Shown here piece by piece: positions 15,159 to 30,120 of a stretch of DNA of 54,366 nucleotides; positions within the stretch are counted from its first letter, which is position 1, and each line of letters opens with the position of its first letter. Source of the stretch: Laspinema palackyanum D2a (GTDB lineage Bacteria; Cyanobacteriota; Cyanobacteriia; Cyanobacteriales; Laspinemataceae); assembly GCA_025370845.1 (NCBI GenBank), contig JAMXFF010000048.1, positions 1 to 54,366 on the forward strand. Reading direction: 5' to 3'. Under the pieces are notes generated by a model. It had not been told where the DNA came from, did no database searches, and saw only the letters and a program-made list of their open reading frames with translations. Position numbers and translations under genes: made by a program.

Positions 15159-17567
15159 CTATGAACTAAGTACCCAACTCGGCAAACAGTTTAGAACTTC
15201 CTCACTCTGGACTTCGAGGGGTTGTTTGAGGGGAATGATGATGGCGAATTCTGTGCCTTTTCCGGGTTCTGAAAAACAGAGCAGCCGTCCCCCATGCTTT
15301 TCGACAACGATCTGGTAACTAATCGACAATCCCAGTCCAGTCCCTTTACCCACAGGTTTGGTAGTAAAAAATGGGTCAAAGAGTTGCTTTTGTAAGTCTT
15401 CTGGGATGCCGTACCCATTATCCCGAATCCGAATCATCACGAAGGAGGGACGGGGGATTGTTCCCGGTATCGCTGCACAAACATCCGAGGGGTGGGGGGT
15501 GATGCCAGGGCAGGATTTGAAAGCAGTGTAGCGATCGCCAAGAGATAAATCCCTGCCTTGCTCCAGATTTGGCGTTCCCAGGCCCCTGCGGGCGATCGCC
15601 CGTTTCCAGTCTCCCGTGATCAGTTCGGTCCTAATCTCTATTTTCCCCACTGTGTCCGGCCCTTCTTCCACCGCATCGATCGCATTACTGAGGATATTCA
15701 TAAACACTTGATTCAGGGAAGACGCATAGCATTCTATCGGGGGCAGCTCATTATACTCTTTGACAATTTCGATGGGAAATGCTCCCGAGCTAGACTTTAA
15801 GCGATGTTGTAAAATCAATAGGGTACTGTCAATCCCTTCATGAATATCCACAGGTTTCATCTGCGCTTCATCGAGTCGAGAAAAATTTCGCAGACTCTGC
15901 ACAATTTCGTGAATTCGTTCGGTTCCGACCAGCATTGAAGAGAGCAAACTGGGAAAATCGGACCGGATAAAGTCGAGTTCGATCGCTTCGATTCGTTTGA
16001 GAATGGCTGGGTTAGGCTCCGGGTAATGCTCCTGATACAAATCAATCAAACTGAGTAAAGCGTCGCTATATTGGTGGGCATATTCCAGATTGCCATGAAT
16101 AAAGTTAACCGGGTTATTCACCTCATGGGCAATCCCAGCGACCATCTGCCCAAGACCGGACATTTTTTCACTTTGAATCAATTGGGTTTGAGTATATTGC
16201 AATTCTTCCAGGGTGCATTGGAGTTGTTGGGCTTGGGTTTGAGCTTCTAGGGCAACCGTCTGACTGGTTTCATACATTTCAGCGTGTTCGATCGCGATCG
16301 CCAGTTGATTCGCCACCGCCTCCAACAGTTCCACCTCGCGATCGCTCCAAGGTCGCATGATGCCACAACTCCCTGCGGCGATCGCCCCGATTGCTCCCGA
16401 TCGCGTCTGGATTGGTAAAGCCACAATTGAATTCAATCCTCCCTGCACACAAAACTCGCGCATTTGAGAATCTCTCGCATTCTCCACCTGATCAACTCTG
16501 ACCGTTTCTCGGCCAATCAACTGTTCCCCCAAAGAACCAATGTCGTCGGCACAATAGTACCCCAACAAACTCGCACATCTTGCCGTGCGGGCTTCTTTCA
16601 CCACTTCCCAGGCTGGAAGTGCGGCATGGGGACGATACCACATAAAAAAGCAGCGATCGATATCCAGAAGACTCCGGATCTCGCTCACTGCCGTCTCTAA
16701 AATCGTATCCAAATCTAGGGAGTACCGAATCTGACTCGCTAACCGGAACAATAATGCCTCCCGGCGACTTTCTTCTAACTTCGATTCGTGGAGGATGGCA
16801 TTTTCTAAGGCTGAGGCAGCTTGAGACGCCAGCATGGTTAACAATTTCAAATCCCCAGCAGCATAACTATGAGCTTCCCAGGTACTGACCGAAATTGCCC
16901 CAATGACGCGATCATTCGTCCTTAGGGGCACCGCCATCAGGGATTTTACCGGGATTTCATCCGCAGCTTTTCTGGGGTCGTGACTAACTTCGTTCACAAT
17001 TTCTCCCATTCCCGAGGCAATCACTTGACCGACAATCCCCTCTCCCACCTTCAGTTTGGCTGCTTGCTCTCCCTCTTGTCCAAACTGGGCCAAGGTTTCC
17101 AGTTCTCCCGTACTCGAATTGAGTAATCGGATCGATCCCCTACGGGACTTGAGCAGCCTCTGGGCTTCATCCAGCACGACTTTAGCCACTTCCTTGATAT
17201 CCAAGCAAGCGGTTAATTTTTGAGAAATATTGTACAGCAGGGTAATTTCTCGATATTTATCTAACGCTTCATGAGCTAGTTGCTTTTTCTCTTGCTCTTT
17301 TTTCGCCAAATAAGCCAGTAGATTCCCGACAGATTTGGCTTCCTCCCCTCCTCGCACCCAGCCCAAGACTTCCCCAGATAGCTCAATTGGATGGCTTTCT
17401 ACTTGTCCCTCCGTGGGGGTGCCCAGGAGGATCTGCCCTGCTGAATCCCAGATCGTGCAGCCTTGAGATTGAATCGCGCTCAACAGTGGGGTCAAAATCT
17501 CTCTAACCTCCGACTTCACCAAAAGCCGCCTGAGATTAATTTTAAAAATTTGAGTGCTTCCTTTCAT
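15159..17567 (-). CDS. GAF-GAF sensor histidine kinase
   Basis: The 802-residue kinase has an N-terminal input region (1-100), GAF1 (about 120-255), GAF2 (about 285-430), a coiled coil (430-467), a dimerisation domain with His481 in AHEVNNPVNFI, and an ATPase domain with N-box NQVFMNILSNAIDA, G1 IRDNGYGIP and G2 GKGTGLGLS. No transmembrane segment is evident, so it is a soluble sensor; ligands are unknown. Between the N-box and G1 box there is an extra segment at roughly residues 652-707 that its paralogue at 43682-46111 lacks. No response regulator is adjacent, making it an orphan. GAGGG upstream supports the ATG. Confidence 0.93.
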   Translation of the reverse strand: MKGSTQIFKINLRRLLVKSEVREILTPLLSAIQSQGCTIWDSAGQILLGTPTEGQVESHPIELSGEVLGWVRGGEEAKSVGNLLAYLAKKEQEKKQLAHEALDKYREITLLYNISQKLTACLDIKEVAKVVLDEAQRLLKSRRGSIRLLNSSTGELETLAQFGQEGEQAAKLKVGEGIVGQVIASGMGEIVNEVSHDPRKAADEIPVKSLMAVPLRTNDRVIGAISVSTWEAHSYAAGDLKLLTMLASQAASALENAILHESKLEESRREALLFRLASQIRYSLDLDTILETAVSEIRSLLDIDRCFFMWYRPHAALPAWEVVKEARTARCASLLGYYCADDIGSLGEQLIGRETVRVDQVENARDSQMREFCVQGGLNSIVALPIQTRSGAIGAIAAGSCGIMRPWSDREVELLEAVANQLAIAIEHAEMYETSQTVALEAQTQAQQLQCTLEELQYTQTQLIQSEKMSGLGQMVAGIAHEVNNPVNFIHGNLEYAHQYSDALLSLIDLYQEHYPEPNPAILKRIEAIELDFIRSDFPSLLSSMLVGTERIHEIVQSLRNFSRLDEAQMKPVDIHEGIDSTLLILQHRLKSSSGAFPIEIVKEYNELPPIECYASSLNQVFMNILSNAIDAVEEGPDTVGKIEIRTELITGDWKRAIARRGLGTPNLEQGRDLSLGDRYTAFKSCPGITPHPSDVCAAIPGTIPRPSFVMIRIRDNGYGIPEDLQKQLFDPFFTTKPVGKGTGLGLSISYQIVVEKHGGRLLCFSEPGKGTEFAIIIPLKQPLEVQSEEVLNCLPSWVLSS

Positions 17568-18263
17568 CTGCGTTCCCTCTAGCTATCTAATTTTATAAAA
17601 GATTGGACGCTTATTATTGTATTGATCTGATTCCCTAAAAATTTATTTCACTCGGTGAAGGAAAATCTTTTTTCTCCTCTAGCTTTCCCCTGCCCTTGAG
17701 GAAGCCGTTTATTTTTCTGGGAGATTTCTTGCTTAGACCTTCCCTCTTGGCATCTACCATGAGGTAGAGATGTCTCCTGAGTTAGTCCACCCCTACTCTC
17801 CCTAAAGTGCGGAGGGGGATTTTTTATGTTTTTTCTCGACCTGGGATCGCAGACTTTTAAGGTTCTAACTAGAGAGTTAACTTTTTAACCGGATCACTCT
17901 TGAAAACCCCCTCGATTTTTTTGAATTTTATCTCTTGATCGCCCTACTTTTCTCAGGATGCCCAATCCTGATTGTGCTTATACACTAACCTAGGTTTTAA
18001 AAAAGTGCCAACGGTTGAATTACCGAGATTTTTTGAAAAACCCTCCGTATAAATACGGAAGGGGGAGGCCAGAGGATACGGAGAGTTATGGAGCAAAGAG
18101 ACTTGGAAGGTAAATAGAATCGGGGTTTTTCCGATAAAAGCGATAGAGGCTGAGGATAAACCCGTTAAGACGGTACCGAGGTCGTCGTATTTTTTTATAC
18201 AAACCAAGATAAAATGGACCAAAAGTTCACCGTAAACAGCATCAAGGAGCAAGGCTCAATCCC
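17568..18263. other. Divergent spacer, kinase to acetyltransferase
   Basis: The 696-bp spacer contains a hairpin CATCTACC with GGTAGAGATG near 17751-17773 and a CCGTAT/ATACGG palindrome near 18045-18059. A minus-strand frame at 17953-18252 has no recognisable family. Promoters for both genes should be here. Confidence 0.4.
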
Positions 18264-19919: not shown

Positions 19920-20012
19920 AATTGAATGATTTCATCCGCAAATTGAGAGTGCATTTTATTCCCCAAAACGCACTTTTTCTATTTTTCTATATTCGAGATA
20001 TAATAACCAGCA

Positions 20013-20058
20013 ACCAATGACCAATGACCAATGACAAATGACAACCGACAAATGACCA
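20013..20058. repeat. Heptanucleotide tandem repeat (CAATGAC-type)
   Basis: About six degenerate copies of a 7-bp unit, CAATGAC and variants, overlap the start of the next gene. The register TGACCAA is the complement of TTGGTCA, a short tandemly repeated repetitive (STRR) sequence described in cyanobacteria. Confidence 0.8.
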
Positions 20059-20906
20059 AACAAGAGTGTCTGTGGAACTACGACAACCAGGCGATCGCCG
20101 TTGCCTATCAAACCCGAGGGCAGGGGATGCCTCTGTTATTACTGCCCGCCTTCAGCACCGTGTCCAGTCGCGATGAGATGCAGGGGATGGCGGAACGATT
20201 GTGCGATCGCTTTGAAGTCGTGGCACTGGATTGGCCCGGGTTTGGAGAGTCCGCTCGCCCCGGGGTACAGTATGGACCGGAATTTTACCATCAGTTTCTG
20301 GCGGATTTCGTGAGTTCTGTCTTCCCGGGACCCGTCGCCATTGTGGTCGCAGGACATGGGGCCGGATATGCCATGAAATTGGCTCAAACCCACCCCGAAC
20401 GGGTTTCTAAGGTGGTGTTAGTGGCTCCCACTTGGCTGGGACCCCTGCGGATTATGGGGGTGCCAGAACCTGTACGGGATTTTGTGAGAGAAACTGTGCG
20501 GAGTCCGGGCATTGGTGAGTTTCTTTATGATTTGAATACTCACCCGGCATTTTTGGAATTTATGTATAAACAGCACGTTTTTGTGGATCCGGCCAAGTTG
20601 ACCCCGGAATTTATTGCTCAAAAGCGTGACAGTACCCAACACCCAGGGGGCAGATTTGCCCCGGTTGCCTTTGTGACGGGGACTCTGGACCCGGCAGGCG
20701 ATCGCGAGGAGATATTAGCCCAATTTCAGCCCTTACCTGTTCCGGTGAAGGTGATTATTGGCACCTTGGCCCCCTCGGGTTCCCAGTCGGTGATGGAGGC
20801 AGTTGCCCAATTGCCTGGGGTGGAATCGGCGCGGGTTGGCGGTTCTCTGGGAATGCATGAAGAATTTCCGGAGGCAGTAGTTGAGGCGATCGCCGACTTT
20901 TTATAA
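20052..20906 (+). CDS. Alpha/beta-hydrolase-fold protein lacking nucleophile
   Basis: From the ATG at 20052 the protein has 284 residues. Alpha/beta-hydrolase landmarks are present: LLLLPAFSTVSSRDEM (oxyanion region), VVALDWPGFGESARPG, and a late GMHEEFPEAV with a possible catalytic His. The nucleophile elbow reads GHGAG, so the usual Ser, Asp or Cys is a glycine. It may be a non-catalytic or differently acting member. An upstream in-frame ATG at 20031 would add seven residues translated from the heptanucleotide repeat, so I reject that start. A stem at 20934-20965 follows the gene. Confidence 0.8.
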   Translation: MTKQECLWNYDNQAIAVAYQTRGQGMPLLLLPAFSTVSSRDEMQGMAERLCDRFEVVALDWPGFGESARPGVQYGPEFYHQFLADFVSSVFPGPVAIVVAGHGAGYAMKLAQTHPERVSKVVLVAPTWLGPLRIMGVPEPVRDFVRETVRSPGIGEFLYDLNTHPAFLEFMYKQHVFVDPAKLTPEFIAQKRDSTQHPGGRFAPVAFVTGTLDPAGDREEILAQFQPLPVPVKVIIGTLAPSGSQSVMEAVAQLPGVESARVGGSLGMHEEFPEAVVEAIADFL

Positions 20907-21464
20907 TCTTGGCCTGTGGGCGCTGGACCCTAAGTATAGAGTCGGGTCTATACCCGATTCTATACGCTTGGGTTTATTTTAATCTACAAAGTTGATAATT
21001 ATTAGCTGGATCTGGTTCCCTGTGTTCTATGTTCAATCCTTGACATTCCGGTTTGTGGTCATGAAACCCACTCCCGGGCGGCTAATTCTGATGCCTATAA
21101 CTCCCGATTGCCCTGGGTTTGACTGGATTCAACTCTCAACAAGGTTAAATATTGTTACAAGAATTTTTTTCAGGATGAAAACCGTGATATAAACGATAAC
21201 TATGAAGTGGAGTTATTCCGACTTCAACAACCCCGTTGTTGTGTAACGGAGTGAATTTCGTCAAAGTTGGAGCGTAAAGAGATGCTAGAATGCGGTTTGG
21301 GGGTTTAAGTCAAGCGGAAGTGACTGCCTGACGATCCGGCAAAAGGATACAAAACCGGCTGCTTATTTGTCGTTAAAGATACAGCGTTTATTTTAAAAAT
21401 GAGAATAAGGTAGGATTTTCCTATCTGATTATTAATAAAGATTCTCAATAGATAGAGGTAGACC
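20907..21464 (+). other. Spacer and leader upstream of feoA
   Basis: The 558-bp spacer begins with the hairpin at 20934-20965 and ends with an AT-rich stretch at about 21380-21450 that probably contains the feo promoter. TGAGAAT at 21400 and ATTCTCA at 21442 form an inverted pair about 35 bp apart. I cannot make a convincing Fur box of the standard 19-bp type. No gene is visible. Confidence 0.45.
20934..20965. terminator. 14-bp stem downstream of hydrolase gene
   Basis: GTATAGAGTCGGGT at 20934-20947 pairs with ACCCGATTCTATAC at 20952-20965 with a single G-T pair and a four-base loop. The T-tract is weak (TTTATTTT begins six bases after the stem), so it may be a repeat rather than a terminator. 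Confidence 0.45.
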
Positions 21465-22106
21465 ATGAAAGGACTGGGGATATTGCACAAGGCACAGGGA
21501 TATCAGAATCCCAAGGATACCTGGTTTAGTTATTTTGGGGCAGCGACTCAACCGAAGCGAACCGGGGAGATTTCCCCCCCTTGCAATCCCCAAGATGGAA
21601 CGGGGGATAGTCCTTTATCCATCGCCCAAGCGGGCGATCGCCTGCGAGTCACGCAGATTACTCGGGGGAGTTCCCTGAAAACCTATCTGGAAGAAATGGG
21701 AGTGAGAGAGGGGACCGAATTAGTCGTCATCGATCGCAGCGCCAGTGGATCAGCGATTGTGATGATCGGGGATCAGCAGATTGGGTTAGGGGCGGGAATG
21801 ACGGGGAATATCCTTTGTGTGGAGTCCACCCAGGGTTACCCAGAAAGCCAAAACCCCCACAAAGCGCTAAAAACCCGGTTGCGAGAGATTGCGATCGGTG
21901 CCAAAGGACGAATTATCGGCTATGAATCCACAAACCGCAGCTATAAGCGCCGACTACTTTCGATGGGATTAACCCCGGGAACCGAGTTTAAAATTATCCG
22001 CCACGCACCCCTAGGCGACCCCACGGAAATCAAGGTACGCGGATTTAGCCTGACCCTGCGGAAAGACGAAGCCGATGCACTCTGTATAGAAAAGGTAGAC
22101 CGATGA
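21465..22106 (+). CDS. feoA: Ferrous iron transport protein FeoA, two-domain
   Basis: FeoA proteins are small SH3-like cytoplasmic partners of FeoB. This 213-residue product is about two to three times the usual length because it holds two FeoA domains, about residues 50-120 (AGDRLRVTQITRGSS...LEEMGVREGTEL) and 138-210 (GAKGRIIGYESTNRSYKRRLLSMGLTPGTEF), plus an N-terminal extension of about 48 residues with little similarity to anything I know. The GAGG before the ATG supports the start, though a start after the extension cannot be excluded. The stop codon overlaps the feoB start (ATGA), implying translational coupling. Confidence 0.92.
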   Translation: MKGLGILHKAQGYQNPKDTWFSYFGAATQPKRTGEISPPCNPQDGTGDSPLSIAQAGDRLRVTQITRGSSLKTYLEEMGVREGTELVVIDRSASGSAIVMIGDQQIGLGAGMTGNILCVESTQGYPESQNPHKALKTRLREIAIGAKGRIIGYESTNRSYKRRLLSMGLTPGTEFKIIRHAPLGDPTEIKVRGFSLTLRKDEADALCIEKVDR

Positions 22107-24418
22107 AGCACCCCATTATTGGCCTGTTAGGGAACCCGAACTGCGGGAAAACTTGTCTGTTCAATGCTTTGACCGGATCCAACCAGCGCGTCGGCAACTG
22201 GCCGGGAGTCACGGTGGATCGCAAAGATGGTACTTATCGCGACGGGAATCGTGAGATTACCGTGGTGGATCTGCCTGGGGTCTATTGCCTGGATGCGGAA
22301 GATGATGAAACGGGACTGGATGAACTGGTGGCCCGGGATTATCTGTTGTCCGGGGAAGCGACGGCGATCGTTAATATTGTAGATGCCTCGAATTTAGAGC
22401 GAAATTTGTATCTGACAACGCAATTAATCGAGATGCGTCTACCGATGGTGATCGCCTTGAATATGATGGATGTGGCGAAAGAACGGGGGATGAATATTGA
22501 TCCGGTGCTGCTGTCAGAACGCTTAGGCTGTCCGGTGATACCGATTGTGGCGACCAAAAAGCAAGGGTTGAGTGCCTTGGGAGATGCGATCGCCCAACAA
22601 GTAGACCGTCCCACCCTGCCTCAAGCTTACGTCCCCTATCCGGCGATTCTGGAACAAGCCTTTTTAGACATTGAAACGGCGATCGCCGACCGAAAAATCT
22701 CCGTTGCGCCGCGATGGGCCGCCCTCAAACTGTTGGAATATGACGATCGCGGCGCATCGGTTTCCACAGATACCGAACTGGACCGGATCATTGTCACCCA
22801 CCGGCGCAAAATTCATCAGGTTCTGGAAGAAGACCTCGATATTATTATTGCTGACAGTCGGTATAGTTACATTCACCAAATTACCCAAGGAGTCACCGAA
22901 CGCCAGGGAGAAGTGAGTGCAAGTATTACCGAAAAACTCGATCGCATTGTCCTGGATCGCTGGTTAGGGATTCCCATCTTTTTAGGGGTGATGTATCTGA
23001 TGTTTTTGTTTACCATCAACATCAGCAGCGCCTTTATCGACTTTTTTGAGATTCTCACTGGGGCTATCTTCGTGGACGGACTGGGCCGGTTTCTGGTCAG
23101 TCTTGGCACTCCCGGATGGTTGGTGGCCCTGGTTGCCGATGGCGCAGGAGGCGGGATTCAGACCGTTTCTACCTTTATTCCGGTGATCGGATTCTTGTTT
23201 TTGTTCCTGTCGGTTTTGGAAGATTCTGGATATATGGCCCGGGCCGCCTTTGTCATGGATCGGTTCATGCGGTTTGTGGGACTGCCGGGGAAATCCTTTG
23301 TGCCGATGTTGGTGGGATTTGGCTGTAATGTGCCGGGGATTATGTCCAGTCGCACCTTGGAAAATCCGCGCGATCGCCTCCTCACTATCGCCATGAATCC
23401 CTTCATGTCCTGTGGGGCGCGGTTACCCGTTTATGCCTTATTTGCCGCTGCCTTTTTCCCCGTTGCCGGTCAAAATATTGTCTTCGGATTATATATTATT
23501 GGCGTACTCGCTGCGGTGGTGACTGGGTTAGTGTTGAAGCAGACCCTGTTGCAGGGAAAACCCTCCACTTTTGTCATGGAACTGCCTCCCTATCACCTTC
23601 CCAGCTTGCGCGGTGTGGCGATTCATACCTGGGACCGCCTCCAAGGGTTTATCTTGAAAGCGGGTCAAATTATCATCATTATGGTGATGGTTCTGGGGTT
23701 GTTAAATTCCGTGGGGGTTGACGGGTCATTTGGGAACCAAGATAGCGATCGCTCAATTTTGAGTGTCACCAGTCAAGCGATCACCCCAGTCCTTTCCCCG
23801 ATGGGAATCCAGCGCGAAAACTGGCCCGCCACCGTGGGAATTTTTACCGGAGTTTTTGCGAAAGAGGCGTTAGTGGGAACTTTGGATTCTCTGTATAGTA
23901 ACATGGCGCGACAACGGGCAACTGGTCAGGATGAAGCAACGGCAGAGGAATTTGACTTTTGGGGACAAGTCCAAGAAGCATTTGCCTCAATTCCGGCCAA
24001 TTTAGCCAAAGTTCCGGCAGCGTTGCTGGATCCCCTCGGTTTAAATATCCAAGACTCCTTAGACACTGAGGAACTAGCCCCAGAGACGGGAGTTGTCGCG
24101 GGTACTTTTGGGGAAATGAACGCTCGTTTTCAGGGCCAAGCCAGTGCTTTTGCTTATCTGTTGTTCGTTCTTTTATATTCTCCCTGTGTTTCTGCCATTG
24201 CGGCGATTCATCGCGAAACCAGTCTGCGATGGACCTTATTTGTGGCCTTCTGGTGCACTGGGTTGGCTTATGGTAGTGCGGTGATGTTCTATCAAGTAGC
24301 CACTTTCTCACAACACGCGATCGCCTCCCTCTTGTGGATTGTAGGGGTGGTGCTATTTGCGGGTGCCAGTGTTGTCTTGATGAAACTTTCTCGGCCCGTT
24401 TTGCCAGTTAAGGGATGA
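22103..24418 (+). CDS. feoB: Ferrous iron transporter FeoB
   Basis: FeoB carries Fe(II) across the inner membrane. The 771-residue product has an N-terminal G domain: G1 GNPNCGKT (10-17), G3 DLPG, G4 NMMD, followed by the GDI-like helical region. The membrane part has the two conserved gates, the first with GCNVPGIMSSRTLENPRDR and NPFMSCGARLPVYALFAAAFF, the second with SPCVSAIAAIHRE. VGIFTGVFAKEALVGTLDSLY marks the conserved core before the cytoplasmic loop. Length is normal. It overlaps feoA by four bases and is followed by a feoC-like gene after 139 bp. Confidence 0.98.
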   Translation: MKHPIIGLLGNPNCGKTCLFNALTGSNQRVGNWPGVTVDRKDGTYRDGNREITVVDLPGVYCLDAEDDETGLDELVARDYLLSGEATAIVNIVDASNLERNLYLTTQLIEMRLPMVIALNMMDVAKERGMNIDPVLLSERLGCPVIPIVATKKQGLSALGDAIAQQVDRPTLPQAYVPYPAILEQAFLDIETAIADRKISVAPRWAALKLLEYDDRGASVSTDTELDRIIVTHRRKIHQVLEEDLDIIIADSRYSYIHQITQGVTERQGEVSASITEKLDRIVLDRWLGIPIFLGVMYLMFLFTINISSAFIDFFEILTGAIFVDGLGRFLVSLGTPGWLVALVADGAGGGIQTVSTFIPVIGFLFLFLSVLEDSGYMARAAFVMDRFMRFVGLPGKSFVPMLVGFGCNVPGIMSSRTLENPRDRLLTIAMNPFMSCGARLPVYALFAAAFFPVAGQNIVFGLYIIGVLAAVVTGLVLKQTLLQGKPSTFVMELPPYHLPSLRGVAIHTWDRLQGFILKAGQIIIIMVMVLGLLNSVGVDGSFGNQDSDRSILSVTSQAITPVLSPMGIQRENWPATVGIFTGVFAKEALVGTLDSLYSNMARQRATGQDEATAEEFDFWGQVQEAFASIPANLAKVPAALLDPLGLNIQDSLDTEELAPETGVVAGTFGEMNARFQGQASAFAYLLFVLLYSPCVSAIAAIHRETSLRWTLFVAFWCTGLAYGSAVMFYQVATFSQHAIASLLWIVGVVLFAGASVVLMKLSRPVLPVKG

Positions 24419-24557
24419 ACGGCGATCGGCAGCAGAAATAGCCGGATGAGCGAGGGTTTAGAATTGAGGCAAATCGGCTTACCCCATCCCTTAATTATTA
24501 TGAACTCGCTCACGGTTTTAAAAGTAGGCGTTCCCTCTTCCAGATGAGTCAGGAAAG

Positions 24558-24827
24558 ATGATATTAACGGAAATTCAAACCTATTTATCTCAACAGGGTA
24601 AAGCCTCACTGGGACAACTGGAACAGCATTTTCATGTTAGTTCTAATGCCTTGAGTCCCATGTTAGAGAAACTGATTCGGAAAGGGCGGGTGCAAAAGAT
24701 AGTTTCCTCGAATCGTTGTGGCAGTTGTGGCAGTTGTGCCCCAGAGACCCTGATTATTTATTACTGGGTAAAAGGTGATTGTTTCTCCACTGAACCCCTC
24801 TCTCCCGCTTGTCCTCATTCGGGATAG
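24558..24827 (+). CDS. feoC: FeoC-like winged-helix protein with cysteine cluster
   Basis: The 89-residue product has a winged-helix N-terminus (ILTEIQTYLSQQGKASLGQL through LEKLIRKGRVQKI) followed by a cysteine loop with Cys54, Cys57 and Cys60 (CGSCGSC), then Cys75 and Cys85. This is the FeoC arrangement, where the wing cysteines can hold an oxygen-sensitive iron-sulfur cluster. It probably modulates FeoB stability or feo expression. AGGAAAG immediately precedes the ATG, a tight spacing. It is placed in the feo transcript by orientation; a strong hairpin at 24831-24882 begins three bases after the stop. Confidence 0.88.
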   Translation: MILTEIQTYLSQQGKASLGQLEQHFHVSSNALSPMLEKLIRKGRVQKIVSSNRCGSCGSCAPETLIIYYWVKGDCFSTEPLSPACPHSG

Positions 24828-24830
24828 AAG

Positions 24831-24882
24831 AATTTATTGAGAGGGTTTGTCAAGCGGACATGATAAACCCTCTCAATAAATT
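24831..24882 (+). terminator. 18-bp perfect stem after feoC
   Basis: AATTTATTGAGAGGGTTT at 24831-24848 pairs perfectly with AAACCCTCTCAATAAATT at 24865-24882 around a 16-base loop, starting just past the feoC stop. It likely ends or stabilises the feo transcript. The symmetrical A/T flanks allow use on either strand. Confidence 0.6.
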
Positions 24883-25362
24883 CCAGGACCCACAGGACAA
24901 GAAACCGGGTTTCTGGCCTAGATTGGGTGCGAATTGCCAGAAATGTTGCTAAGAAAGCCGGTTTCTAACCCTTGCTGTATTACCCGACTTGATTGAGTAA
25001 GGGAACTCCAAAAAATAAAATCTTCGAGGAGAGATCCCCCCAACCCCCCTTCTTAAGGGGGGCTTGAAGAATTCTGCAAAACTTCTAATGCAGAAGTTTT
25101 TTTATGGAAATCCCTAAGCGGGCAACGATAAAAGTTACTGGTATTTGTTCTCAATAAACAAAATTAATCTGATTTAATGAGATCAGAAAATCTGACGGAA
25201 GTGCGGGTATTAAAGTTTTGTTAACAATCCCGAAAACCCTTGCTAAAATCCAGACAAAGTTTTATTCTAAGACTAAAGAGTTTTATCCAGGGTGAACTTT
25301 TAGTCCTCAAGCCATCGGCGATAACGGATTGAAAAATACCCGGGGCTAGGGGAGGAAAGGGA
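24883..25362 (+). other. Repeat-rich spacer before the HMA2 gene
   Basis: It holds AAGAAACCGGGTTTCT at 24900-24915 with a variant near 24955, then a C-run/G-run repeat CCCCCCTTCTTAAGGGGGG around 25044-25062 that is common in cyanobacteria, and a hairpin AAACTTC/GAAGTTT with a T-run at 25078-25103 that could be a terminator. An AT-rich stretch from 25130 to 25290 is the likely promoter region for the next operon. Confidence 0.6.
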
Positions 25363-26328
25363 ATGGTCAGTCAAACGGCAACCACTGGAACCGGAACTGT
25401 TAAATTAGTTCAGGCAGTTGAGGGCTGTGTGCAATTGCGCGCAGGGGATAGCACGGGTATTCTTTATCTGAATCTGCTGGGGCAACAGGTGGGACAAGAA
25501 CCGGGCATCGTGGCGGTTTCTACGGATGCCAAAACGGGGGATTTAATTATTGTCTTTAATCCTCATGTTATTCCCCTGATTCAGGTGCTGGAAATGCTGC
25601 AAGAGTGGGGAATTTCTGGGATAAAAACCGACGCAGACCCGGTAAAGCAAGTGGGAAATTTTCTGCTTCATCATCAAGAATTGGAGACATTGGCCCCGAT
25701 GATTGCCGGGATGTTGGTGACTCAGACCCTGAAACTGCGCGGGGGATGGGCGTTACTGGGAAATGTGATAGCGGCGAGTGTGACGCGACAGGCGATCGCC
25801 CAATTGGAGCAAAACTCCACCGATGCCGCTGTGGTAACGATGCCATCAGTGGCAACTCCGGCACCGACTGCGCCTCAATCAGCGGTGAAAGCGCCATCGG
25901 CAAGGGGAGTCGAAATCGTTCATGCCATTCCCGGACGAGTGCGGTTGCGCGTGCCCAAAATTGCCAAGGATAGCACTTGTGCCGATCGCCTCCAAACGGC
26001 CCTCTGTTCCCAACCGGAAGTTACCGAAATCCGCCTCAATCCCATCACCGCCTCGATTGTGGTTCAGTATGAAATTGCTGCCGGATTAGATGAATCCTGG
26101 CGATCGCACCTGGTGGAGATGATTCAACAGGCGATCTCTGATTTACCCCAGGAAACCCCCACCCCAGAACCCGAGTATCCCGAGGAAACCCCAGGAGTCG
26201 CCGAAGTAGAACCCGATGCGAGTCTTACCCCCGATGCTGACGAGGATGCCGTGAATTATTTTAACCCTTGTTTTGCGCGGGCATTTGTGAATGCCATGAT
26301 GAATCGGTTTATGGGGGCGTCGGTGTAA
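25363..26328 (+). CDS. HMA2-domain protein preceding P-type ATPase
   Basis: The 321-residue protein appears to have two ferredoxin-like domains of the HMA2 type. The second is clear: HAIPGRVRLRVPKIA at residues 187-201 and ITASIVVQYE near 228-237. The first, residues 12-95, is weaker. Between them lies a hydrophobic pair of segments (110-142) that may insert into or lie on the membrane, and an Ala/Pro linker. The tail is strongly acidic (about 243-297) and ends with NYFNPCFARAFVNAMMNRFM. No CxxC metal-binding motif is present, so it is not a classical copper chaperone. It has a strong ribosome site and is followed after 20 bp by the ATPase gene. A metal-handling or scaffold role is inferred from context. 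Confidence 0.8.
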   Translation: MVSQTATTGTGTVKLVQAVEGCVQLRAGDSTGILYLNLLGQQVGQEPGIVAVSTDAKTGDLIIVFNPHVIPLIQVLEMLQEWGISGIKTDADPVKQVGNFLLHHQELETLAPMIAGMLVTQTLKLRGGWALLGNVIAASVTRQAIAQLEQNSTDAAVVTMPSVATPAPTAPQSAVKAPSARGVEIVHAIPGRVRLRVPKIAKDSTCADRLQTALCSQPEVTEIRLNPITASIVVQYEIAAGLDESWRSHLVEMIQQAISDLPQETPTPEPEYPEETPGVAEVEPDASLTPDADEDAVNYFNPCFARAFVNAMMNRFMGASV

Positions 26329-26348
26329 TCGGACCGAGGAGCAGCAAA

Positions 26349-28622
26349 ATGATAGCAAATATAGAAATTTGGAACAAATCCAGGAATCCCCTCGCCGAAG
26401 TGACGCCGACTTGGGTTGCCTGTACTTTAGTTCATGCCATCCCGGGACGAGTCAGGTTTAGAGTCCCACGCCTTGCCCGCGATCGCCCCTATGCCAGTCG
26501 CCTGGAACAAGCAATGGCGAGTCAACCCGGGGTGATTCAAGTGCGAGTGAATCTCACTGCCGCCTCCATCGCCATTCACTACCAAACCCAGGGGGTGAGG
26601 GATGAAAGAAGGCGATCGCAACTGGTGAAAGTGATTCAACAAACCGGGCAACTCCAGCAGTCCCCGGGACGTGAGAGCAACCCCGTCATTCCTGAACTTC
26701 CGGCAACAGAACCCGAGGGTCATGATATCAAATGGCCTGCCATTGCTACTCTGCTGGCGATTCTAGGCGGTCCCCTGGGCTTGCCGATTCCACGAACCCT
26801 CATGGCGGGAAGCGTTGCCTGGGCTGCTTTACCCGTGGCTAAACGGGCGATCGCCAGTGTTCTCGTCGAACGCCGCCTGAATATCGACTGCTTAGATTTG
26901 ATGGCGATCGCCCTGTCATCCCTGCGCGGAAATTTGCTCACCCCTGCCTTAGTCATGACCCTCCATGAAGTTGGGGATACCATCCGCGATCGCACCGCCC
27001 GGTCCTCTGCCGCCCGGACTGCGGACCTCATGGACACCATCGGGCGCTTTGCCTGGGTGGAACGCCGAGGAGAAAAACAGCAAATTCCCGCCACTGAGGT
27101 GGAAGTTGGGGAAACCGTCATTGTCTATCCCGGGGAGCAAATTCCTGTAGATGGGATTGTCTTACAGGGAACCGCCACCATCGATCGCCAGAAACTCACC
27201 GGCGAATCCATGCCGATTGTTGCTGAAAAGGGAACTCAGGTTTATGCCTCCACCCTGCTGCGGTCCGGGGAATTGTATATCCAAGCGGAACGAGTCGGGG
27301 CCGCCACCCGGGCCGCAGCGAGTTTGGAATTAGTGAGAAAAGCCCCAGTCCATGATACCCGCATGGAAAATTACGCCGCCAACATCGCCGATCGCGCCGT
27401 CTTACCTGCGGGAATCTGGGCCGCCCTGGTGTGGGCCCTGACTCGGGACCCGGGACGGGCGGCAGCGATTCTCACCTTAGACTTTGTTACCGGAATTCGC
27501 GTTTCCGTCCCCACCAGCTTTATGGCAGCCCTGACTCATGCCACCCGACATGGGATTTTAATCCGCAGTGGACGCGCCTTGGAACAATTAGCGGAAGTCG
27601 ATACCGTGGTATTTGACAAAACCGGCACTCTCACCCAAGGGAATCTGTCCGTCGTTCGCATCACCACCGCATCCCAGGCAATTTCCGAGGCGGAAGTGCT
27701 GGAACTGGCTGCTGCTGCGGAACAACGGATTTCTCACCCCGTAGCCGAGGCGATTGTGGCGGAGGCCCAAAACCGGGGAGTGAGACTGTTGCCTCGGGGA
27801 GAATGGCACTATGAGGTGGGTTTTGGCATTCAGGCGGAGATTGAAGGGCGCAGGGTGTTAGTCGGTAGCGATCGCTTCTTGCGCCAGTCCGGAGTGACAG
27901 TGGACTGTCTGACGGATCAGCAACGGCGATGCGATCGCGGATTGGACTGTGAGCAAACAGATTGTGCGCTGAATGTCAACTGTTCTTTGATTTACGTCGC
28001 TTGTGAGGGCAAATTCCAAGGCGTCATCGAATATGCAGACCCCCTGCGCCGGGAAACCCCCAGGGTGATACAACGGTTGCAGTCAGAGTATCACATTCAG
28101 GTGCAGATGCTGACTGGGGATGAACGTCCCCGCGCCCTTGTGGTTGCCGAAAAACTGGGGATTCCCGCCCGTCATACCCATGCCGAAGCCTTTCCCGAAC
28201 AAAAAGCCGCCATCGTGCGCGAATTACACGAATCAGGGAAAACCGTTGCCTTTGTGGGGGATGGGTTAAATGATTCCGTTGCCTTAGCTTATGCGGATGT
28301 ATCCGTGTCCTTTGCCAATGGATCCGATGTGGCCCGAGAAACCGCTGATGTGGTGTTGATGGAGAACGATTTGTCTGGGTTGCTGGATGCGATCGCGATC
28401 GCCAAGGAAACCCAGCAGATTATACAACAAAATACCACCTTAGTGGTCGGACCCAATTTAGCCGCCCTGGTTTTAGCATCCACCCTGGGATTGCACCCCT
28501 TAGCCGCCACGGTGGTTCACAACGGTTCAGCGATCGCCGCCGGATTAAACGGGTTACGTCCTCTGATGCATATCGACCCCCCGCGATCGGCGTCAGAACA
28601 GAGTGCAATCAACCCAAGTTAA
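26349..28622 (+). CDS. P1B-like metal ATPase without CPC motif
   Basis: The 757-residue protein starts at the ATG preceded by GAGGAG at seven bases; the frame extends back to 26268 but would overlap the upstream gene. Residues 28-80 form an HMA2 domain with HAIPGRVRFRVPRLA. ATPase motifs are intact: TGES, phosphorylated Asp423 in FDKTGTLTQ, SHP, GDGLNDSVA. The transmembrane metal site normally written CPC or SPC reads FVT before Pro388 (DFVTGIRVSVP), so no cysteine is available. The nucleotide-binding region has six cysteines within 33 residues (C520, 528, 534, 539, 545, 552). The metal is therefore unlikely to be Cu(I) or Zn by the usual mechanism; iron or manganese are candidates. Confidence 0.92.
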   Translation: MIANIEIWNKSRNPLAEVTPTWVACTLVHAIPGRVRFRVPRLARDRPYASRLEQAMASQPGVIQVRVNLTAASIAIHYQTQGVRDERRRSQLVKVIQQTGQLQQSPGRESNPVIPELPATEPEGHDIKWPAIATLLAILGGPLGLPIPRTLMAGSVAWAALPVAKRAIASVLVERRLNIDCLDLMAIALSSLRGNLLTPALVMTLHEVGDTIRDRTARSSAARTADLMDTIGRFAWVERRGEKQQIPATEVEVGETVIVYPGEQIPVDGIVLQGTATIDRQKLTGESMPIVAEKGTQVYASTLLRSGELYIQAERVGAATRAAASLELVRKAPVHDTRMENYAANIADRAVLPAGIWAALVWALTRDPGRAAAILTLDFVTGIRVSVPTSFMAALTHATRHGILIRSGRALEQLAEVDTVVFDKTGTLTQGNLSVVRITTASQAISEAEVLELAAAAEQRISHPVAEAIVAEAQNRGVRLLPRGEWHYEVGFGIQAEIEGRRVLVGSDRFLRQSGVTVDCLTDQQRRCDRGLDCEQTDCALNVNCSLIYVACEGKFQGVIEYADPLRRETPRVIQRLQSEYHIQVQMLTGDERPRALVVAEKLGIPARHTHAEAFPEQKAAIVRELHESGKTVAFVGDGLNDSVALAYADVSVSFANGSDVARETADVVLMENDLSGLLDAIAIAKETQQIIQQNTTLVVGPNLAALVLASTLGLHPLAATVVHNGSAIAAGLNGLRPLMHIDPPRSASEQSAINPS

Positions 28623-28653
28623 TACCCCTTACCCTTACTGGAGGAATTGTATC

Positions 28654-28977
28654 ATGGGACTCATTCATTGGAAACAAGCCGGAATGCAACAACATCTCAC
28701 CGAAATGATGGAAGCGGGAAAAGGAGGACGGGCGATCGCCTTGGGAATCGGTGCAGTAGTCCTCGCACCTATTTTATTACCAGCGATCGGTAAAGTTGCC
28801 AAACCCCTCGCCAAAGCAACCCTAAAAAATGGCATTACCCTCTATGAAAAAGGTAAAGTTGCTGTAGCAGAAGCCAACGAAGTATGGGAAGATATTTTAG
28901 CAGAAGCCAAAGCCGAAGCACTCGCCGAATCCCATAAAATACCCAACGCTGAACCGAATCATAATCATAAAGGATAA
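28654..28977 (+). CDS. DUF5132-like small membrane-associated protein
   Basis: The 107-residue product starts at an ATG preceded by GGAGG at 28640-28644; an in-frame upstream ATG at 28603 lies inside the ATPase gene and is rejected. It has a glycine-containing hydrophobic helix AIALGIGAVVLAPILLPAIG at residues 27-46, then a long amphipathic Lys/Ala/Glu helix (about 48-95), and a tail with NHNH that could bind metal. I recall DUF5132 as a family often found next to HMA2 proteins and P-type ATPases in cyanobacteria. It sits 31 bp after the ATPase gene and is almost certainly co-transcribed. Confidence 0.8.
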   Translation: MGLIHWKQAGMQQHLTEMMEAGKGGRAIALGIGAVVLAPILLPAIGKVAKPLAKATLKNGITLYEKGKVAVAEANEVWEDILAEAKAEALAESHKIPNAEPNHNHKG

Positions 28978-28989
28978 ACTCAACTCCAT

Positions 28990-29203
28990 CCTGAAGTCGT
29001 TCTCTTAGTTCGTAGTAACGACTTCAGTCGTTCTCTTAGTTCGTAGTAACGACTTCAGTCGTTCTCAATCAGGACTTACGCAATTTATAACATCGACCCC
29101 TAAATGTAGAGGCGATTCGCGAATCGCCTCTACATTTAGGATTGACCCTCCCCAAATCCATAAGTCCTGTCAATGTTCAACGTCCCGACTTCAGTCGTTC
29201 CCT
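28990..29203. repeat. CTTCAG hairpin repeats interrupted by a small element
   Basis: Units with AACGACTTCAGTCGTT begin at 29012 and 29043, a 31-bp period as at the left end of the window; a partial unit starts at 28990. A 100-bp element (29070-29169) interrupts the array, after which ATGTTCAACGTCCCGACTT continues at 29173. That same 19-mer occurs at 13101. Confidence 0.85.
29070..29169. mobile_element. MITE-like element, 100 bp, 5-bp target duplication
   Basis: The ends are CAGGACTTA and TAAGTCCTG. The sequence TCAAT lies immediately outside both ends (29065-29069 and 29170-29174). The centre is a perfect 42-bp palindrome at 29099-29140 built on TAGAGGCGATTCGCGAATCG. There is no coding capacity, so mobility would need a transposase encoded elsewhere. 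Confidence 0.8.
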
Positions 29204-29234
29204 TAATTCCCCATCACAATTTCACTCATTCCCA

Positions 29235-29885
29235 TCAAATCCCACAAAAACCCTGAATCGCCTCCCAAATCTCCGGCATCACATTCCCCAACCCATGATC
29301 GCTATCTAACTCCACCATCTCCACCCAAGGACGAGAAGCAGCAAATCGACGACTTGCCTCAACCGGAATCACCTCATCTTTCACCCCATGTAAAATCAAA
29401 GTCGGTAACTGTCGCTGCAACTGATTTTCAACGTAACCTTGAGCATCCATAATAAATTGATAACTCAGGGGAATATCCCGCTTTTCTCCATAATGATAAA
29501 TCGGCAAATAACCCTGTTCTTGCCAAAATTCAAGCCGTTTTGGACCTAAACTCGCCATCCAATGACTCAGAAATTCAAAAGCAGGGGCTAATAAAACCAG
29601 GCGATCGATTTGCGGATATCGTTCCGCTAACCAGGCAGAAGTCAGTCCCCCAAAACTTGAGCCAATTAGGGTAACTGTAGCCGGTTGCGGGGGGAATTCC
29701 CTCGCAACTTGTTCCAGTTGCCGCGTCAGAGTCAGATGCGAAAAATCCCCGTGATTGAGATTAGGAATCTTGAGAGGTATTGATAGTTCTGCAAAGCGAT
29801 CGCGCAGATAATTCGCCTTAAATGAATCAGGACTCGATGCAAATCCATGTAAATAAATGTAAGTTCGCGGTAATGTTTGAGTCAT
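29235..29885 (-). CDS. YqiA/YcfP-like alpha/beta-fold esterase
   Basis: The 216-residue protein fits the YqiA/UPF0227 group of small alpha/beta hydrolases. YIYLHGFASSPDSFKANYL (residues 9-27) is the typical opening, GSSFGG (75-80) contains the nucleophile Ser77, ILHGVKDEVIPVEAS carries the acid, and LDSDHGL the catalytic His. Family members hydrolyse short acyl esters; the natural substrate is unknown. AGGA lies before the ATG. The gene reads away from the MITE region and is preceded on its 5' side by a tandem repeat. Confidence 0.88.
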   Translation of the reverse strand: MTQTLPRTYIYLHGFASSPDSFKANYLRDRFAELSIPLKIPNLNHGDFSHLTLTRQLEQVAREFPPQPATVTLIGSSFGGLTSAWLAERYPQIDRLVLLAPAFEFLSHWMASLGPKRLEFWQEQGYLPIYHYGEKRDIPLSYQFIMDAQGYVENQLQRQLPTLILHGVKDEVIPVEASRRFAASRPWVEMVELDSDHGLGNVMPEIWEAIQGFCGI

Positions 29886-29900
29886 AGTTAACTATCCTTT

Positions 29901-30120
29901 GCAAAAGTTCGTAGTGACTCCTTCAGGAGTCTTCTTAAAGCAACCCCTGAAGGGGTTACTACAAACGTTCGTATGCAAAAGTTCGTAGTGACTCCTTCAG
30001 GAGTCTTCTTAAAGCAATTCCTTCAGGGGTTACTACAAACGTTCGTATGCAAAAGTTCGTAGTGACTCCTTCAGGAGTCTTCTTAAAGCAATTCCTGAAG
30101 GGGTTACTACGAACCTTCGT
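29901..30120. repeat. Three tandem 74-bp units with paired hairpins
   Basis: Units start at 29901, 29975 and 30049. Each holds GACTCCTTCAGGAGTC and a second palindrome that varies between copies (AACCCCTGAAGGGGTT, AATTCCTTCAGGGGTT, AATTCCTGAAGGGGTT). The layout matches the AACGACTTCAGTCGTT family but with different arm sequences that still pair. Confidence 0.9.

Follow-up and report, generated by a model that had tools for sequence, protein, structure and literature searches.

A candidate Fe(II)-pumping membrane module, sister to ferrosome P1B-6 systems, downstream of feoABC in the cyanobacterium Laspinema palackyanum D2a

What is a heavy-metal P-type ATPase, encoded together with two small partner proteins, doing downstream of the ferrous iron uptake genes of a cyanobacterium? 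The question is raised by contig JAMXFF010000048.1 of Laspinema palackyanum D2a (assembly GCA_025370845.1), whose positions 1 to 54,366, analyzed in full and called the window below, carry feoABC and, after it, a triad of genes for an HMA2 protein, a P1B-type ATPase and a DUF5132 protein. Ferrosomes are known from few organisms, and the initial annotation had proposed that the triad is a cyanobacterial relative of the ferrosome (fez) system or another iron or manganese compartment. Our comparisons indicate that the triad is probably a cyanobacterial membrane module that pumps Fe(II), stands in a sister relation to ferrosome P1B-6 systems and acts downstream of Feo. No such cyanobacterial system is described in the covered text of the literature on ferrosomes and cyanobacteria. 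The titles and abstract openings searched yielded no paper on a triad module, and the term DUF5132 had no occurrence in the searched literature; the original ferrosome survey lies outside the coverage of both searches.

Pfam and NCBIfam matches confirmed the three gene identities (Table 1), with gaps of 20 bp between the HMA2 and ATPase genes and 31 bp between the ATPase and DUF5132 genes. The HMA2 protein consists of a hydrophobic stretch and a C-terminal HMA_2 domain that has no CxxC and carries the motif HAIPGRVR (25921-25944). Besides E1-E2 ATPase and hydrolase matches, the ATPase has an N-terminal HMA_2 domain of its own (4.9e-9), in which HAIPGRVR recurs (26433-26456), and it reads FVT at the columns of the CPC motif. 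The three genes, their spacing, the repeated HAIPGRVR and the FVT had been annotated correctly from the letters. The description of the ATPase as "cysteine-less" was wrong: the protein has eight Cys, six of them within an insert at residues 520-552, and only CxxC and CPC are missing. The triad does lie on the strand of feoABC and downstream of it, but "directly" is a loose description, as 535 bp with hairpins and a promoter-like site separate feoC from the HMA2 gene.

The ATPase was placed in a tree of 57 P1B ATPase rows (the careful version; a quick version had 68 rows). Its clade, supported at 100/100, comprises 27 rows, of which 26 come from cyanobacteria and one from Deinococcus. The sister of this clade, with support 100/98, is a group of 18 P1B-6 ATPases, which we labeled Fez-type from the P1B-6 signature and their neighboring genes. 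Seventeen of these belong to proteobacterial records, a term used broadly here so as to cover Campylobacterota and deltaproteobacterial bins, and one (locus L215) comes from the window's phylum. Further outward branch one row each from Fusobacterium and Priestia (99/95), then an ATPase of Rhodococcus linked to DUF1490 (100/98), and then P1B-4, ZntA-like and CopA-like rows. The window's clade is thus separate from the CtpC/V-like, ZntA-like, CopA-like and P1B-4 rows, and within this sample the ATPase groups with no characterized non-iron pumps. According to the part of PMC9374683 covered, the P1B-6 signature comprises HN in transmembrane segment 6 (TM6) and DUF6110 partners. The window's ATPase is a close relative, not a proven member, of the ferrosome pumps: its clade is sister to the Fez-type clade and not within it, but belongs to the wider set that takes in the Fusobacterium and Priestia rows.

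The alignment columns of the predicted metal site tell the same groups apart. At columns 379-381 in TM4, CopA- and ZntA-like rows have CPC, P1B-4 rows SPC, and Fez-type rows YSC (16/17) or YAC (1/17); cyanobacterial rows mostly have F[V/A]T, with Thr381 in all 24 HN- and NN-type rows. Asp378 is invariant in the Fez-type and cyanobacterial rows of the column table. Column 724, at which TM6 contributes a metal ligand in ZntA and LpCopA, holds His in Fez-type, P1B-4, DUF1490-linked and HN-type rows, and Asp or Met in CPC rows. It also separates the two cyanobacterial forms: when copies were read singly, all 27 of the HN type had His and all 19 of the NN type had Asn. D378, T381, H724 and N725 are invariant across 15 aligned HN-type rows, and the Cys-free metal site they may form would be compatible with either Fe(II) or Mn(II). 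All 24 HN-type ATPases checked have the H-x3-G-R-x-R motif, as do 65 of 76 full-length Fez-type ATPases. Within the Cys-rich insert, Cys also occur in the ATPases of L198 and L203, whereas the remaining ten HN-type rows compared have few Cys there or none.

We analyzed the linkage of such ATPases to FeoB in 386 genomes of the window's phylum, a sample that may include non-photosynthetic members. A TM4-segment profile matched 79 places in 56 of these genomes; FeoB places are the PF07664 matches listed, with the weak end left out, and distant copies may be missed. Distances were counted between matched segments, and expectations assume uniform placement. A FeoB lay within 10 kb of 15 of the 27 HN copies, against 0.144 expected. 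For NN copies the count was 1 of 19 (0.035 expected), and that FeoB is common to an HN copy of the same genome. Among the 33 remaining copies, only part of which were read in sequence, one was linked (0.222 expected), namely the Fez-type ATPase of genome G364 (L215). The linked FeoBs are of three types, one about 770-800 aa long, one of 610-670 aa and one that is split; the types are about 22-36% identical to one another, and their genes stand co-directional with, divergent from or convergent to those of the ATPases. Because of these three types and varied layouts, the linkage arose more than once and is not one inherited block. In this survey, of a kind that the initial annotation had suggested, the HN form lies beside feo far more often than expected, and the NN form is mostly not near FeoB.

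The partner proteins were compared with those of 80 Fez-type loci, the best-scoring against a Vibrio segment, several of which are closely related. A small HMA_2 protein is encoded at 64 of the 80 (69 if the ATPases' own domain is counted), a DUF2202 ferritin-like protein at 24, FeoB at 17, and a FezC-like C-terminal domain at 25 to 29, depending on the use of a single query or a profile. FezC is a DUF4405-like cytochrome in the portion of PMC10979944 covered, and the fez genes of Rhodopseudomonas palustris are RPA2333-2338 according to PMC12016538. In profile-profile comparisons (first 40 sequences per set; four unrelated control pairs scored below 1), cyanobacterial HMA_2 proteins matched a Fez-side set chosen by its HxxPGRxR-type motif with P 98.4 and E 7e-15, and the DUF2202 sets of the two groups matched with P 99.9 and E 1e-34. 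DUF2202 genes are present at 5 of the 27 HN loci (L064 and L065, from one genus, L071, L078 and L080) and also at L215.

The window locus accordingly resembles fez loci in its sister ATPase clade, TM6 HN, HMA_2 partner, recurrent feo neighbors, N-terminal H-x3-GR-x-R domain mostly without CxxC and small glycine-rich membrane protein, and some relatives add DUF2202. It differs from them in its TM4 (FVT versus YSC), in its lack of a FezC-like (DUF4405) domain and in encoding DUF5132 in place of a DUF6110/YtxH-like protein. Two observations concern the Fez-type loci themselves. L215 (G364:C10:9000-28900) encodes a Fez-type P1B-6 ATPase (15924-18218) with DYCC in TM4 and HN in TM6, beside HMA_2 and DUF2202 proteins and two different FeoB genes; the case for a ferrosome is stronger at this locus than in the window. 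In the deltaproteobacterial loci L154 and L161, an additional ATPase gene runs in the opposite orientation, and its product has CPC, CxxC and HSIPGRMR.

The DUF5132 protein has an LIHW N terminus, a glycine-rich hydrophobic stretch, a long helix and an NHNH tail. The tail, to which the initial annotation had drawn attention, is indeed there, but among 73 DUF5132-like proteins of the fetched neighborhoods the window's is the only one to have it, and NHNH as a conserved metal tail was discarded. Homology to the DUF6110-like set was not supported (P 0.6), and the comparison with YtxH-like Fez proteins gave P 47 and E 2e-4. A PF19605 search of the window's genome gave no match, and the control genomes were likewise without one. 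Alignment-free structure prediction returned one long helix for the DUF5132 protein (mean pLDDT 71) and a poor model for the HMA2 protein (mean pLDDT 46). At L040, L042, L055, L064, L071 and L080, two small genes stand in place of the window's single DUF5132 gene (28654-28977), which looks like a merger of a protein starting MSLIHWDKS with DUF5132 proper.

On these grounds we propose the following scheme. FeoB would import Fe(II) to the cytosol. Partners would be docked, or metal received, by the HMA2 protein and by the matching N-terminal domain of the ATPase, both of which have a conserved H-x3-G-R-x-R face and no CxxC, and the ATPase would export Fe(II) from the cytosol through the O/N ligands Asp378, Thr381, His724 and Asn725. 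The helical DUF5132 protein may collect the pumps in a membrane patch or vesicle. Candidate destinations of the metal are the periplasm, the thylakoid lumen and a ferrosome-like vesicle. The sequences themselves establish the genes, the clade, the motifs, the gene linkage and the shared partners; the substrate, the direction of export, the ligands, the clustering by DUF5132 and the role of H-x3-GR-x-R are all inferred.

An inverted repeat, hairpins with a downstream T run and a sigma-70-like site, all within the 535-bp gap (Table 1), make it likely that the triad is transcribed separately from feoABC. The hairpins have z = -2.45, with 5 of 200 shuffles folding equally well, and are not in the list from the consensus scan. 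Putative FurA sites were scored with a matrix built from the consensus AAATAAATTCTCAATAAAT, as published in the covered parts of PMC4005646 and PMC4788461, and from 23 sites listed in PMC4005646. The FurA-box-like site at feoA has the third-best score in the 54-kb window. Fur control of the triad gained no significant support: an exact TTCTCAATAAA core stands out at 25148, yet the full-site score is non-significant (best 11.73 at 25160, with 41 of 300 resamples as high). A scan with the E. coli consensus found nothing for the triad, where 118 of 200 shuffles did equally well, and gave weak support at feoA (19 of 200). When 24 upstream regions of relatives were scored against the FurA matrix, the score of six was reached in no more than 3 of 60 resamples (L076 feoA, L078 feoA, L083 HMA2, L077 HMA2, L199 and L200), which is suggestive of FurA control in relatives but not proof. 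An Rfam search of 20000-30000 for structured RNA gave no match.

Table 1. Features of the triad, of feoABC and of the region between them, in window coordinates
Feature	Position	Strand	Basis or remark
HMA2 protein gene, 321 aa	25363..26328	+	PF19991 (HMA_2), 1.8e-11
P1B-type ATPase gene, 757 aa	26349..28622	+	TIGR01525 (NCBIfam heavy-metal P-type ATPase), 4.7e-153
DUF5132 protein gene, 107 aa	28654..28977	+	PF17195, 2.1e-15
TM4 metal motif Asp378-Phe-Val-Thr381, replacing A-C-P-C	27480..27491	+	Alignment column table
TM6 His724-Asn725 motif	28518..28523	+	Column table
Cys-rich insert, 6 Cys, residues 520-552	27906..28004	+	Similar in L041 and L199
feoA, two FeoA domain matches	21465..22106	+	PF04023, 1.8e-33, two stretches
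feoB (771 aa type), importer of ferrous iron	22103..24418	+	FeoB_C PF07664, 7.5e-24
feoC	24558..24827	+	PF09012, 3.6e-18
FurA-box-like site upstream of feoA	21435..21453	+	14.75 bits; 3/300 Markov resamples as high
Inverted repeat, 23-nt arms, 96%	24830..24883		Directly 3' of feoC
Pair of hairpins with a T run after the second; may terminate feoABC	25044..25107	+	Folding
AT-rich palindromic stretch with exact TTCTCAATAAA FurA-box core	25148..25178	+	Full 19-mer match weak
Sigma-70-like promoter site TTAACA-17-TAAAAT	25221..25249	+	Consensus match alone

Several features of the surroundings are recorded for completeness. The FeoA of the window is a double-length protein. Downstream of the triad lie direct repeats of GTTCGTAGTAACGACTTCAGTCGTTCTCTTA with 31-bp spacing (28977-29067) and, after the DUF5132 gene, an inverted repeat with near-perfect, loop-free 21-nt arms (29099-29140). 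The sequence GCGATCGC, a repeat typical of Cyanobacteriota, occurs 86 times in the genome versus 0.9 in shuffles. The best plasmid match of the ATPase is from Gloeothece (46%), and five ferritin-family matches lie elsewhere in the window's genome.

A number of results weigh against an Fe(II) pump akin to those of ferrosomes. Both the iron substrate and the transport are predicted, and no experimentally tested FezB sequence, such as those of Desulfovibrio magneticus, Rhodopseudomonas palustris and C. difficile, is among the tree rows. Twelve of the 27 HN copies have no FeoB within 10 kb; one of these, in G105, has FeoA in line with HMA2, and six sit on a contig without FeoB among the matches listed, one of their genomes having none. 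HN copies are also not independent, because HN is a clade trait. The NN form, with the same triad in most loci, is mostly away from FeoB, and 11 of its 19 copies are in genomes without FeoB among the matches listed. One FeoB-linked HN-type ATPase (L071, G166:C116 4358-5596) has no catalytic domain, TM4 joining TM6, which may be either a real loss or an assembly collapse, and the unlinked ATPase copy of G002 is split across two frames. The Fez TM4 motif D-Y-S-C is absent, the window having D-F-V-T, and Cys381 was found in 17 of 17 Fez-type rows counted. A DUF2202 search of the window's whole genome found none, and the FezC-like profile that detected 29 of the 80 Fez-type loci gave nothing under E 0.02 in three overlapping sets of cyanobacterial loci (28, 61 and 20); DUF4405 has one sub-threshold match elsewhere in the window's genome. 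The homology of DUF5132 to FezA/YtxH is only suggestive, and the FurA-like site of the triad is the non-significant one given above. The ferrosome kinship first proposed is thus partly supported: the sister clade, the HMA_2 homology, the DUF2202 genes of some relatives and the linkage of the HN form to feo speak for it, and the missing FezC-like domain, the replaced last Cys of TM4 and the NN form away from FeoB speak against it.

Other explanations draw on the same evidence. In mycobacteria the small membrane protein PacL1 forms clusters with a P-type ATPase and stabilizes it; a GxxG motif marks the TM helix of PacL proteins, and at its C terminus PacL1 carries a His motif that binds metal (PMC9374683 and PMC13043812, in the parts covered). 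A metal-efflux platform like PacL1-CtpC, in which a pump and a small clustering protein expel excess metal with no compartment, would explain a TM6-HN P1B ATPase encoded with a small TM-plus-helix protein, and DUF5132 has a layout similar to that of PacL1, with the NHNH tail in the window only. The DUF1490-linked ATPase of L105, a near branch, also has HN in TM6. However, it retains CPC and falls outside the clade of Fez-type and cyanobacterial ATPases, the NHNH tail is unconserved, and HMA_2 and DUF2202 partners are common to the Fez-type and cyanobacterial clusters, so we regard an efflux platform as somewhat unlikely. Membership in the CtpC/PacL or CtpV family itself was rejected: the small protein matches DUF5132, and the ATPase, without CPC, belongs to another clade. 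The P1B-4 Fe/Co ATPases (PfeT, FrvA, CtpD) share His at TM6 column 724 with the window's ATPase but have SPC in TM4 and HEG in TM6 and form a separate branch; membership of the window's ATPase, with its FVT and HNG, was rejected. The P1B-4 sequence sample included PDB 7QBZ, which we take to be P1B-4. Iron export is reported for this group in the covered part of PMC7762939.

A pump of the same kind could also serve manganese or another divalent metal and be kept near feo through linked Fe-Mn homeostasis. Its Cys-free site would presumably suit Mn(II) equally with Fe(II), and the NN copies, so often far from FeoB or in genomes without a listed one, fit such a role, but three different types of FeoB are linked to the HN form and DUF2202 ferritin-like genes accompany some HN loci. 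We consider this reading unlikely. The NN-type loci remain the nearest relatives of the window's triad, with the same gene kinds, and differ in Asn at column 724 and in FeoB linkage. That the triad has no function as a pump module, being an inherited feo neighbor or a sensor-like remnant, would agree with the relative that has no catalytic domain and the one broken in two frames; the window's ATPase, however, is an open frame with catalytic domains, its four putative ligands are invariant in the HN-type rows aligned, and the linkage recurs with different FeoB types, which makes a remnant highly improbable. We therefore continue to favor a module that pumps Fe(II).

A wider proposal, that cyanobacteria of several families have their own ferrosome-type iron compartments, is a tentative possibility. 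These would be fed directly by FeoB and built on a FezB relative that has lost the Cys of its metal site and uses Asp, Thr, His and Asn; the Asn-Asn form would be a second branch that differs in cargo or role, with a single residue, His724, setting the iron-linked form apart from it. Phototrophs carry a heavy iron load, and an Fe(II)-sequestering module coupled to Feo would, if real, bear on how they buffer iron. The locus offers a testable substrate site (His724, Asp378 and Thr381), a natural contrast between HN and NN forms, and a gene set that can be deleted. With a Feo-adjacent pump that is sister to those of fez systems, the existence of iron compartments in cyanobacteria becomes a testable matter.

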